Assembly (NCBI GenBank): GCA_947561715.1
Contig: OX387200.1
Coordinates: 7,628,501 to 7,692,500, forward strand
Source: Ascidia mentula
Lineage: Eukaryota > Chordata > Ascidiacea > Phlebobranchia > Ascidiidae
Reading direction: 5' to 3'
Length of the DNA stretch: 64,000 nucleotides
Shown: piece after piece, positions 21,083 to 51,968 of the stretch
How positions within the stretch are numbered: position 1 is the stretch's first letter
Layout: every line of letters begins with the position of its first letter
The notes under the pieces: generated by a model
The model's input: only the letters and a program-made list of their open reading frames with translations
What the model was told of the DNA's origin: nothing
Database searches by the model: none
Program-made: the position numbers and the translations under genes

Positions 21083-23593
21083 TCATTTAGTCATGGAGTC
21101 AATCCATAAACGATAATCAGCAATCTATAAAAAATACATACGTCAACATATAAATAAAGGGACTTTAACTACTAATTCGAAATTGCAGGTCATGCCCCCT
21201 TTTAAATATTTTTGTCGAACCCCTATTATTCTTATGAAACAGAAATATAACGCCCACAAAAGCAGACAAAGCAGGTCTGCTTAACAATGGTCAGCATTTT
21301 AAAATTTTACTTTCCCAGTCTTTTAGGTCGACTGTTTCCAAAATACTACTGCAGTAAAAAATGGAAGTGGTAAAATACAAACGCTTATATATATATAATA
21401 GAGAAAACGTCAAAAAATTGACTACAGGAATCAGCCTTTGCAAGTCGGTGACCTTATATATATATTTACCTTATCATATATTTACGATTTTGCGAAACGC
21501 ATAACTAAATATTTAATAAACGAAACTTTCGCGGGACGCCGGATAAAAGCCATTGATTTAAATGTAAAAGAATGATTACTTCGTTTTACCTTCGTATAGA
21601 CACCTGGCTTATCCGCCTGTCCACAAATTTTTGCACCATATGATGTTATACCGTGAAGGTAGTAATGATTGTCGTCATGGAGACAAACCAACGGTCCTCC
21701 ACTGTCTCCCTGAATTAAAACCGCAAACCATTGAAATGAATGTGAATTTGTTTTCGGTCAAATGGCAAAACTACTAAAAAACTGAACTGCCCGATGATGT
21801 TTGGAGTATAAACTTATGTTACAGTGTGGCAATTTACAATATTGCTTTTAGAACAAGGGGACTTGAAAACTTTAGAACAAGGGGACTTGAAAATATTTGT
21901 TACACCTACAGAAAAACATTTGTTTAAGTTCTCGGGTTATGAAAAAGGGTTATGCTGTTAAAAAATTCTTAGAGCCCTCAATGGAGGCGTTCTCTGCCTG
22001 TGGGATCCCACTCCCGTGGTGACAAGCACTGTATGATAAAGCAGTTACATTACATCAGAAGGCAAAATCCAAAGGTTCCCGCAAGACTTGGTTTGCTTGG
22101 GCTTGCAACCTATTGAGACTCACGTCACATGTATCTTGGCCCAAAATCCCTCCGGCACAAAATCTCTTGTTTCCAACATTAACCACGCGCTGCTCATAAT
22201 CACTTGAACTCATATATGTCAGGCCGGCGCAAACCACTTCGTTAAGGATTGTCTTGTTCAGTTGCAACAACGTATCGGACACATTTTGGTTGCCTGCAAA
22301 ACAACGCGTGAAAAACGTTAAAGTTATTCTACATTGTAACGACGCTTGATGTCTAGTGTCCGGTACAGACTGTTCTAAAACCAATCTGTTTATTTAACTT
22401 TCTGACAATTTTTTTTACCTTGGTTTGTAGATTTAATTTTTTGCTGTATGTCGACCGCTCAAAACTCACAAATATCCCTAAAGGAGTCGCACAGTTTGCA
22501 TTTTCGGGGAAAATTTAAGAACGCTTACTTGTTTCACCCCAACCCAAAACGGAGCAGGATTTCCCAGCAAATGTCGGGAATAACACTTTGTTTGTTCTAA
22601 AACCTTCCGGCACAAGGTTAACGGGACGCACAAAATGGTTGAATATAGCCGGTTCTGCAAGCTGCAATAACAAGCGAATTTTACTTCTAGAATTTTATCG
22701 TCTGGGTTAATGCTTCGCTGAAAGTCAAAACAACTTTTATCGAAATCTAATATCGCTGCACGAAACAAAACTTCCTCAATGAAAACAATTTTCGGCGAAA
22801 TTTCCTTACCTTCAGCAGCGCGATATCATTTTGAAATATCTGCTGTGAATTGAACGCATTGTGCCTCTTTATTTCGGTAAGATCAAAAACCTGTTCTGCA
22901 CATGATGGCTGTGACCTTGTGTGTTCCCCGAGTATCACACCATAAAAGGAGGGGTTAACACTGAAAAACAAATTTGATCGGTTTTTCACGCCGATATTGA
23001 ACCGTGGTGAACAGTCAATAAGGTAAAACATCATTGGTGAGCCAATTTTTTTGAAGAAATTATTGCAAATTTAACTGCCATACCGAGTGACAACAATATC
23101 TCGATTTAAAATGAGAAATTCTTCACCAGTAAATGCAACACACTTACGTTCCAATACAGTGAGCGGCTGTAACTACCCACTGTTCATTGATGAGGGAACC
23201 TCCGCATATGTATCCACTGTATGGGTCGGGCTTGTCGTACACATAAGCCATGAACGGCCAATCTCCTTGTTGCGTTTCATTTCCCCCTGAAATTGTTTTT
23301 GCATCAGACAATTTGTTACAATTTTTTTTCTATTTGACGGAGCGAGTTACACAAGCGAATTTACAAACTAGAAAAATAATTTTTTCGTTTTGACAATGAA
23401 TTTAGTATGCGAAGAAATTCGTTCTTCACAAAATTCCAGATCGTGCAGGACTTTATTACACATATAACTATATACTTTAGTAACTTCTCCGTGTTATACA
23501 GTTTACCATATATAGCAAACCTATAATCGCATGTGCTCCTAACAGCGAGCCCAATAGTTGTAGAAGAAAAAGATTGGAAAGTTGTTTCTTCAT
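21083..23593 (-). CDS. M1: secreted trypsin-like serine protease, no propeptide (275 aa, 7 exons)
   Basis: Exons in transcript order: 23593-23521, 23286-23148, 22960-22810, 22661-22529, 22293-22124, 21709-21590, 21124-21083. Phases agree and sum to 276 codons. Signal peptide is residues 1-22 (MKKQLSNLF..., ending GAHA) followed at once by IIGG at 23-26. Triad: H67 in TAAHC, D116 in QNDIALL, S225 in GDSGG. Asp189 is present (GQDTC), as are Gly216/226 equivalents, predicting Lys/Arg cleavage. The last exon reads [13 protein letters not shown]. It is head-to-head with P1, with 605 bp between the ATGs. The donor of exon 1 is a weak gtttgc, the same as in M2. Substrate and tissue are unknown. Confidence 0.88.
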
Positions 23594-24198
23594 CTTTGAA
23601 ATCACTTGATCACAGTAAATATTTCTTAAACGTTATGTGAAAAACATTTCTGCCCCAAGACCTTATATATTCCATCTTCAATATAAATATGCAAAACACG
23701 GTGAAGTTACTGAAGTCTTGTAATATGTGTGATAAATGTTTCTGTGCGTGGTTTCTGTAAACGCAATTACTCGTGACGATCTACATATACATACCGATAC
23801 ACAAATATTTGATATGAAACAGTAAACTGTATAGTCGTTACACAGGCACAAATATAAAGTTACACGTAAGTCAGAACCCTATCGGAAAAGCCCGACCTCT
23901 GAACATAGACGTGACGAGAGAGGGGACCGAAAAAATATCATCAATGTACATTTTAAATGCAATACGTTAGCAGATACTTTCATCAGCCGAAACTGACGTT
24001 ATTGTATAGATTTAAAATCATATTTGGCATCTAGGGAAATAAGACAAGAACGCATTTCCGATGTTTGCATAAGTTTACGCTCATTAAGAATTACCATTAC
24101 TATATATTATTAACCTGCATATGTCGCGCCTATAAAAAGGACTTGCGCCAGTGTGTTGGCATTTGAGATTTTACTTGAGTTCATCACTAACCTCAACA
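23594..24198. promoter_or_regulatory. Shared divergent promoter of M1 and P1
   Basis: Between the two ATGs. On the P1 side TATAAAA lies at 24131-24137, 68 bp before the ATG, after a GTCGCGCC phrase, and TTTGCATA lies at 24064-24071. On the M1 side the complement of TTTGCATATTTA lies at 23685-23695, and a TATATAA-like box near 23661-23667 faces the gene. The layout is repeated in the other four pairs. Confidence 0.65.
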
Positions 24199-50128: not shown

Positions 50129-51968
50129 ATGAAGAAAATTGTCATAACTCTCCTGGCGTTGCAGTGCTATTGGATTTCACCGGGAGTAAAAGCAACCTCA
50201 GGTATGGATTATTGAATTAATCGCACAGAAGTTTTGTAATTTCATTGCAACTTTTGTTCACAGATCCAAATAATACCTGGCCGTTCATTGCTGCCATTTA
50301 TGTTCTTGACAAAGGAGTGTTCGATGGATTTGTTTGTGAAGGAACACTGATCAGCGACAACTTGGTGCTTACATCAGCTCACTGCTTTGAATCGTAAGTT
50401 AGATTGACGAGCAGTTTTGCTTGGCTTTGCACAAGATTTGAAAACCTAAATTGCTGATACTTTGTCTTGTAACATTTATTAAAAACAACGTTAAAGCAAC
50501 GCTGAACAAATTGACAGTGTATAATGCCCATGACGTACTTTCAATTTACCTAGTTTACAGTTTTATGGTGTTTGTTTTAAACTGGATTTAAACCTGATAT
50601 CCCAGACAGAAAGTTTTATATTCAGATCATCGCCCTGCGCTTCTAACTATGGAGTTGTTTTGGGCGATAACATCAGATCGACTCCATCTTGTTTCGAGCA
50701 ATACACGGATGTTGCCGAAATACAGATTCATCCATATTTCGACAACTACGCATTCAACAATGATGTGGCACTTTTGAAAGTCAGTAGTTTATTTTTTCAT
50801 TGTTTTACATAATTGAAGGTCACGAATCAACACAAAATCCGATAGTTGGCGATTTTGTTTCGCTGCCAGCAACAATGCATTTAGAACATATACTGCTTTT
50901 TGCACACTGGTAAAATGACTAATGTTGTTAATGGATTGCAAATAAGACACAAAATTTGTAAAAAAGCAAGGACATGTCGTATATTATGTTTGTAGTTGGA
51001 TGAAAAGGCCCACGTACATCCAGCAGTGAGACCAATCAAGTTGGTGCCAGCAAACTTTACTGCTGATAAAATATTATTTACACCCGGAAAGTGTTTGGGT
51101 TTGGGATGGAGCACAACATGTAAGCAACTAACTTTCTAAAACCCCCTTATTCTTTACGTAAAGTCTTGTTTCGACGCATAGTACATGTGAGGACTTGGGT
51201 GAGTCGTTTTCAAACAAAAACCTCGCCTATAGACTTATCGTCGCAAGAGCATTAACACATTTCGGTGAAATAAATATTTTTTTTTCAAGTCTAAAATTAC
51301 AATTTTGAAGTAGGCGAAATCGCAGTTTCTAGTTAATAAATCAGTTGACAACAAACCAGGACGCGTTGCTTCATTTAAATCAATAGCAGAAATCCGTTTG
51401 GTTTTATGAACAGCCCCATCCAATAACAAGGGATACGACGTTTTGCTTCAATCTGATCAATTGGTTCTTCGGGCCTCCCTTTGCCGATGGATTATTCTAA
51501 AAAATAGTGTGGATTACAAAGGTCGCCTGCTTCACGACGGTGACTCCAAATATTGCGGGTTTTCATATGATGGAGAAGATGCGTGCTTGGTGAATATCGT
51601 AGGCTCAGACAATAATTAAACTTAAACGTTGTTACCAGTATAAAATTAATGCAAAGCCTCGATGCTAGAAAAATTAATCCGTGAAAAACGTTATGCTATA
51701 ACAACGCAATAATACTTACAATATTTCAGGGTGCGCAAGGCGGTCCGTTGATCTGTCTCCATGACGACCAAGAGTATTATCTTCACGGTGTGAAGTCGTA
51801 CGTCCCAACAGATTGTATTAAAAAAACAAAACCAGCAGTTTATACCAAGGTTTGCGTGACGTTTGCATGAAAATTTGGGAACAATTAAACTGTAACTTAA
51901 ATGCCATGAACCATATTTACTGATAATAGATTTCCGAAATGAGGACGTGGATTGAGAAACACGTTTAA
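50129..51968 (+). CDS. P5: secreted serine protease homologue with GAQGG (271 aa, 7 exons)
   Basis: Exons: 50129-50201, 50264-50393, 50626-50779, 50996-51119, 51414-51589, 51730-51849, 51930-51968; 272 codons with stop. Signal peptide and exon 2 are almost identical to the other P genes (DPNNTW for DQNNTW). Exons 4 and 5 are much more diverged (LDEKAHVHP, GYDVLLQSDQ), with a 3-residue shorter exon 5. H64 and D114 are kept; Ala221-Gln222 replace Asp194-Ser195. Asp occurs at position 189 (EDACL). That GAQGG survives in the most diverged copy argues the change is ancestral to all P genes. Last exon ISEMRTWIEKHV. AATAAA at 52102-52107. Confidence 0.88.

Follow-up and report, generated by a model that had tools for sequence, protein, structure and literature searches.

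Five head-to-head pairs of an apparently zymogen-less trypsin-like gene and a pseudoprotease gene in the ascidian Ascidia mentula: a tentative case for an enzyme and a non-catalytic partner

To our knowledge, synthesis as a zymogen is almost universal among proteases of family S1, and dead S1 homologues of unclear purpose occur in many animals. How, then, might a trypsin-like enzyme be controlled when it is apparently zymogen-less and its gene stands back to back with a homologue lacking the nucleophile and both halves of the activation switch? This question is raised by a stretch of the genome of the ascidian Ascidia mentula, the 64,000-nucleotide window analyzed here (bases 7,628,501-7,692,500 of contig C67, OX387200.1, in an assembly of 195.8 Mb and 79 contigs), which offers a compact case, with five copies, in which to ask if a prodomain can be substituted in trans by a pseudoprotease. 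We read the locus as a lineage-specific ascidian array of a co-secreted zymogen-less enzyme (M) and a non-catalytic partner (P), the latter possibly replacing prodomain control in trans, and we give this reading a probability of roughly 0.4.

Exon models of M5 and P5 were built by hand and transferred to the other eight genes by alignment, the last exon of M2 was corrected with a splice-aware aligner, and all ten models were translated. These exon-level models confirmed the five divergent M-P pairs described in an earlier note on this DNA: ten S1-protease genes between 21,083 (stop codon of M1) and 51,968 (stop codon of P5), with M on the minus and P on the plus strand in strict alternation (positions are those of the window).

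21083..23593, minus strand: M1, trypsin-like serine protease with 7 exons, its signal peptide followed immediately by IIGG
24199..25944, plus strand: P1, pseudoprotease (GAQGGP), 7 exons
28158..30664, minus strand: M2, trypsin-like serine protease with Ala in place of Gly226, no propeptide
31264..33134, plus strand: P2, pseudoprotease
33709..36069, minus strand: M3, trypsin-like serine protease, no propeptide
37045..38922, plus strand: P3, pseudoprotease
40361..42706, minus strand: M4, trypsin-like serine protease, no propeptide
43682..45570, plus strand: P4, pseudoprotease gene, exon 1 one base short, frame shifted
46969..49185, minus strand: M5, trypsin-like serine protease, no propeptide
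50129..51968, plus strand: P5, pseudoprotease that has diverged from P1-P4 in exons 4, 5 and 7

The seven exons claimed for every gene were found in 10/10, and the ATG-to-ATG distances of 605, 599, 975, 975 and 943 bp in units 1 to 5 agree with the claimed 600-980 bp; all five gene-model pairs are divergent with a short intergenic region (599-975 bp), as in bidirectional pairs. The statement that the arrangement is always divergent holds within each pair, whereas the alternation makes neighbouring units tail-to-tail as well, across four gaps of about 0.6-2.2 kb from stop codon to stop codon. GT-AG borders were found at 60/60 introns, intron phases are 1,2,0,1,0,0 in nine of the ten genes (the introns of P4 lie at the same places, with the frame shifted from exon 1 on), and exon lengths differ among copies by multiples of three, P4 exon 1 excepted.

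Catalytic triads (5/5) and eight standard cysteines each place the M proteins in peptidase family S1A, and M4 matched plasma kallikrein at E 4e-36. His57, Asp102, Ser195, Asp189, Asp194 and Ile16 are present in 5/5 M, and the trypsin specificity set comprises Asp189 (5/5), Gly216 (5/5) and Gly226 (4/5, Ala in M2). A propeptide and an activation site are missing from all five gene models: exon 1 encodes a signal peptide, whose last residues are GAHA or GAQA, and then Ile-Ile-Gly, the next Gly opens exon 2, and the signal peptide abuts Ile16 (IIGG). A propeptide cut before residue 16, which defines a zymogen and is usual but not universal in S1A, was found in none of them. Upstream of each M ATG the frame is closed by a stop codon at a distance of 21 or 42 nt, and the stretch between them holds no further in-frame ATG. 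S1 enzymes are switched on by the free amino group of Ile16, and Ala at -3 and -1, the canonical signal peptidase site, stands immediately ahead of Ile16 in 5/5 M. Since the signal peptide runs straight into Ile16, signal peptidase alone should give an active trypsin-like enzyme, and M is predicted from its sequence to be born active. Passages of a study on mite trypsin (PMC3779199) report that activity needs a free N-terminal Ile, that four to six extra residues keep a zymogen-like state and that active trypsin is obtainable without the propeptide, which suggests that the N-terminus of M matters and that M could fold without a propeptide. Alternatively, M might not be born active, with signal peptidase cutting two residues earlier (GA/HA or GA/QA) and a dipeptidyl peptidase finishing the work in a granzyme-like manner. 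Granzyme-type dipeptides are established, and H/Q-A precedes Ile16 in all five M proteins; set against this route are the canonical Ala -3/-1 site directly before Ile16 in 5/5 (a rule from general knowledge) and the Phe (M3-M5) or Leu (M1, M2) that the earlier cut would place at -3, and we consider it unlikely.

The P proteins share S1 homology and have lost at least one triad residue: in 5/5, Ser195 is replaced by Gln, which makes them pseudoproteases, Asp194 by Ala, Gly216 by Val and Gly226 by Ala, and Ile16 is gone. His57 and Asp102 are retained in all five, and at residue 189 P1 and P5 have Asp, P2-P4 Asn. With Ile16 and Asp194 both absent, both ends of the activation salt bridge are lost, while M keeps the bridge wired on; given the residue losses observed, P should not cut. 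Exon 1 of P encodes the signal peptide plus TS, that of M the signal peptide plus IIG. The eight standard cysteines are found in 5/5 P, and each P protein has ten cysteines in total. Each M protein has nine, the extra one lying in the 70-80 loop without an obvious partner (5/5), and this ninth cysteine could link the M and P chains.

The reading frame is intact in 4/5 P genes, among which the indels are all in-frame and the signal peptide is conserved. In P4, exon 1 (43682-43753, plus strand) has 72 nt as compared to 73 in the other four, with a defect at an A run that shifts the frame inside the signal peptide; P4 is either a pseudogene or an assembly error. The ratio of nonsynonymous to synonymous divergence (dN/dS) is 0.24-0.55 for M pairs (independent pairs M3-M4 and M1-M2, p 7e-13) and 0.17-0.92 for P pairs, with 0.59-0.92 in 7/10, and it is below 1 for P on the independent pairs P3-P4 and P1-P5 (p 0.0085). 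P is probably constrained, less so than M. That the P genes are functionless decaying copies, as the P4 frameshift, the dN/dS of 0.59-0.92 in seven of ten pairs and the long P stem branch (1.31 vs 0.17 for M in the tree described below) might suggest, is very improbable in view of four intact frames, GT-AG borders at 30/30 P introns, eight standard cysteines in 5/5, a signal peptide conserved in the four intact genes and a TATA-like block ahead of all five. Part of the copy number might be an assembly artefact, units 3 and 4 being two alleles placed in tandem: their dS of 0.03-0.05 is within the range of allelic divergence in ascidians, and the P4 defect falls at an A run. The other units are too diverged for alleles (M1-M2 dS 0.68), and we regard this explanation as improbable.

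Between the two start codons of each pair, the intergenic regions are of two types and carry the following elements.

23594..24198: type A divergent intergenic region of unit 1, 605 bp
30665..31263: type A divergent intergenic region of unit 2, 599 bp, 98% identical to unit 1
36070..37044: type B divergent intergenic region of unit 3, 975 bp
42707..43681: type B divergent intergenic region of unit 4, 975 bp
49186..50128: type B divergent intergenic region of unit 5, 943 bp
23684..23695, minus strand: TTTGCATATTTA upstream of M1, in M sense (likewise at 30755, 36147, 42784 and 49263 for M2-M5)
36868..36879, plus strand: TTTGCATATTTA upstream of P3, in P sense (likewise at 43505 and 49955 for P4 and P5)
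24064 (P1) and 31129 (P2), plus strand: the 8-base TTTGCATA alone, without the full TTTGCATATTTA
50055..50067, plus strand: CGCGCCTATAAAA, TATA-box-like block upstream of P5 (likewise at 24125, 31190, 36971 and 43608 for P1-P4)

Identity is 98% between units 1 and 2, 89-99% among units 3-5 and 53-57%, near random, between the types; with 30 nt of exon 1 added on each side the values are 97.7%, 90-99% and 56-60%, respectively. Both types share TTTGCATA, which stands in sense orientation upstream of 10/10 genes, at -102 (M1, M2), -89 (M3-M5), -135 (P1, P2), -177 (P3, P4) and -174 (P5), and in antisense orientation within 300 bp of none of the ten ATGs. We take its reverse complement to resemble a POU octamer. 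It occurs 20 times in the window compared to 6.83 expected, ten of these in the intergenic regions, while TTTGCATATTTA, allowing at most one mismatch, was found 8 times compared to 1.81 expected, every copy being exact and within the five intergenic regions. The block CGCGCCTATAAAA lies 62-74 nt ahead of the P ATG in 5/5. As copies within a promoter type are related, the shared-motif test used a single unit per type (M1, M3, P1, P3; 250 bp): a common motif of at least 8 bases turned up in 0/1000 replicates under a reversed/letter-swapped null of low diversity and in 30/1000 shuffles that keep the conserved-column pattern (p ~0.03). The common TTTGCATA element would be better evidence for a putative co-expression of M and P than the kept pairing.

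Where enzyme and dead homologue come from was approached through related genes, two of which flank the array.

54622..59918, minus strand: CL2, related protease whose N-terminal exons are Cys-rich and whose activation site is Arg/IleLeuGly; a candidate signal-peptide exon gives its presumed upstream limit
17201..19524, minus strand: CL1, decayed CL2 copy with stops, missing exons and no GDSGG, upstream of the array

Within CL1 there is an exact tandem duplication of 155-158 bp (18071-18383). An insect origin and a CLIP label, both suggested by the Cys-rich flanking exons, were rejected, the search with M having led to ascidian proteins and one exon frame each of CL1 and CL2 having given no Pfam match; in the M and P gene models exon 1 holds little beyond the signal peptide, and no CLIP domain was found there. 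The candidate first exon of CL2 has no TTTGCATA within 300 bp upstream, the nearest upstream copy being about 900 bp off. M and CL2 are identical at 131-140 of 248-250 positions, M and P at 91-102 of 240-242, and P and CL2 at 90-94 of 241-242. The protease-domain introns of CL2 lie at the same positions as those of M and P, and the last six intron phases of a further locus, L025 on contig C72, equal the M/P phases. Because both carry the same introns, the seven-exon layout is not specific to the pair and goes back to a larger family. A tree of 29 proteins shows P (100/100) and M (94/89) each as a clade and the two as sisters (90/83); next to M+P (86/83) stands a clade made up of CL2 and three dead copies (100/96). 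Placing P outside M+CL2, or M outside P+CL2, was not rejected in the approximately unbiased (AU) test (p-AU 0.335 and 0.336), and an exclusive ancestry of M and P is weakly resolved. The shared exon structure, from which the earlier note derived one ancestor for enzyme and homologue, was therefore rejected as proof of an exclusive M/P ancestor, CL2 and L025 sharing the introns and the AU test not telling the alternatives apart; the claim stands in so far as enzyme and dead homologue descend from a common family.

An activation site is kept in the relatives: R/ILG in CL2 and the dead CL-type copies L028-L030, R/IIGG in L025 (within the genome, the comparison of relatives covers these five loci), and Arg/Ile in 10/11 public relatives (P0001-P0011), the exception being Styela P0011. 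Cys122, which we take to be the usual prodomain tether, is gone from M, P, CL2 and L026-L030 and retained in L025 and 11/11 public relatives; as L027, with its long branch, falls into another part of the tree, this loss is not limited to one clade. The extra cysteine in the 70-80 loop is common to M, P and CL2 and absent from the other 18 rows of the alignment. A second dead CL-type set lies on the plus strand of C67 at 7.78-7.85 Mb, about 100-170 kb beyond the array, with six places listed; in the three examined (stretches of 8-9 kb; L028-L030) the top-scoring model was each time a dead CL-type copy, never an M-type one. L028-L030 have lost His57, Cys42, Cys58 and Ser195 and keep Arg/Ile, Asp194 and Cys-rich N-terminal exons. 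Two large trypsin-family exon sets were seen elsewhere, on C71 at 0.69-0.96 Mb and 14.3-15.2 Mb, all listed ones on the minus strand.

The earlier note further held that the pair had spread as a unit and that its persistence suggests joint production. For the recent units the first point stands, an 8.4 kb block from M3 on matching the following block at 93%; for the whole array it fails, and strict co-duplication was rejected on segment mosaics, two promoter classes and conflicting M and P trees. The M tree separates 3,4,5 from 1,2 (forcing 2,3,4 together is rejected, p-AU 3.2e-7), whereas the P tree separates 2,3,4 from 1,5 (forcing 3,4,5 together is rejected, p-AU 6.7e-5), both tested groupings having been chosen after the first tree was seen. 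In line with this, dS is 0.68 for M1-M2 vs 0.07 for P1-P2, and 0.13 for M3-M5 vs 0.23 for P3-P5. Units 1 and 2 are 92-100% identical from M exon 1 over the promoter to P exon 2, with M introns 4-6 at 0.44-0.52, while units 3 and 5 are alike in M and promoter and unlike in P introns 2-6 (0.55-0.67). The contrast between noncoding DNA at 98% identity and adjoining M coding sequence with dS 0.68 speaks for gene conversion or unequal crossing-over, which we infer as the mechanism behind the observed mosaic. Unit order is kept while parts are exchanged between units.

Such a history might have another meaning, namely that an inverted duplicate was amplified in blocks and that P is a binding or decoy protein with no action on M. 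Block duplication would explain the alternation, the M and P trees are discordant, the dead CL-type set beyond the array stands apart with no M-type gene in the three stretches examined, and Styela P0011 is dead too. The same sense-oriented element, which precedes M as well as P in each of the five units, speaks against it; we consider this a real possibility, if a somewhat doubtful one.

In a search of public proteins, the top 12 of 609 matches to M are eight named tunicate proteins (Phallusia at 51%, Ciona, Styela) and four unnamed metagenome proteins, and the first named non-tunicate among the 120 of 609 matches listed has 36% identity. M4 is 51% identical to Phallusia P0001, of which L025 is the likely orthologue (187/248 identical over the protease domain). 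The layout of M was seen in none of the top 12, the protease domain being preceded by an N-terminal region in P0001-P0011 and P0012 being a fragment that lacks that end. No P orthologue was found in protein searches with 11 and 22 matches, the best being 36% to Ciona proteins with intact GDSGG (P0121, P0122 and P0004, the P matches inspected, all carry this motif); such searches depend on common words of five residues and would overlook a distant P. Within the genome, all matches above 70% identity lie inside the window, and the best outside is a C72 exon (70% for M, 61% for P), among 140 of 481 candidates scored for M and 140 of 247 for P. Among the open-access literature matches listed, nothing was found on zymogen-less ascidian S1 proteases or on head-to-head enzyme/pseudoprotease arrays.

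Taking the array as one of enzyme and partner, we propose that M lost its whole prodomain, and that signal peptidase, cutting after Ala-X-Ala, would free Ile16 and yield a trypsin-specific enzyme with no zymogen stage. P, lacking Ile16, Asp194, Ser195 and the S1 glycines, would be a non-cutting protein, most likely secreted together with M as its non-catalytic partner (scaffold, targeting subunit or restraint), and may have taken over the control formerly given by the prodomain. Tandem duplication would have kept the alternation, while conversion or unequal crossing-over may have swapped promoters and gene halves between units. We infer partnership and co-expression from these sequence features; the stronger version, in which an enzyme born active has exchanged zymogen control for a dead twin acting in trans as a separately encoded restraint or targeting subunit, we regard as unlikely. 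Several observations weigh against an M-P partnership or its premises. Duplicating a block with both genes keeps the pairing free of cost, and P4 is frameshifted whereas M4 is intact, so that kept pairing is a weak argument for joint production. Tight one-to-one co-evolution is made less likely by the mismatch between the two gene trees, dN/dS reaches 0.92 in P1-P2, and the pairs P1-P2 and P3-P4 together do not depart significantly from 1 (p 0.21). The TTTGCATA element was selected post hoc, its p is ~0.03 under one null, and 10/20 of its sites in the window fall outside the intergenic regions. The short stretch ahead of each M ATG contains AG dinucleotides, so that a further upstream exon might have escaped the gene models, and a cut two residues earlier would leave M with a dipeptide. 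Additionally, Styela P0011 also lacks activation site and Ser195, indicating that dead copies arise where no such pairing is known.

Other features of the window are a THAP-domain open frame (PF05485; 6418-6933, plus strand), a 719-aa open frame (12764-14923, plus strand) with weak C2H2 zinc-finger matches just under the Pfam cut-off, and a 206-bp tandem repeat (8.3 copies, 94% matches; 62289-64000) that reaches the window end; Rfam gave no match within the window at the gathering threshold.

Compared to known systems, M is closest in protease-domain sequence and in its trypsin Asp189 to the ascidian prodomain S1 proteases (Phallusia P0001, Ciona P0003/P0004/P0121), which keep an N-terminal region, the Arg/Ile site and Cys122, whereas M and P are without all three. 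Styela P0011 ('serine protease 33-like') resembles P as an ascidian S1 protein without Arg/Ile site and Ser195 (Gly), yet, unlike P, it retains the N-terminal region, Cys122 and Asp194. Granzymes and neutrophil elastase have a minimal activation peptide like M, yet they keep a dipeptide that is removed by cathepsin C, whereas M is predicted to have none. In the mosquito, dead S1 proteins such as SPCLIP1 regulate a proteolytic pathway, as stated in the abstract of PMC3764210; these insect serine protease homologues are non-catalytic like P but carry a CLIP domain, unlike M and P, and that abstract describes no head-to-head pair. The inactivated paralogues of the scabies mite are, like P, multi-copy dead relatives of an active enzyme, and according to passages of PMC4930577 some of them inhibit human complement; most dead copies of the dog mite keep intact substrate-binding sites, whereas P has lost the S1 glycines and the activation switch, and an alternating array with active partners is not described in those passages. 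In ascidians themselves, sperm use the trypsin-like acrosin and spermosin, and a polyprotease joins trypsin-like domains of which one lacks the typical triad (passages of PMC9265791); that protein, HrOvochymase of Halocynthia, is one polyprotein with CUB domains, whereas M and P are encoded by two separate genes.

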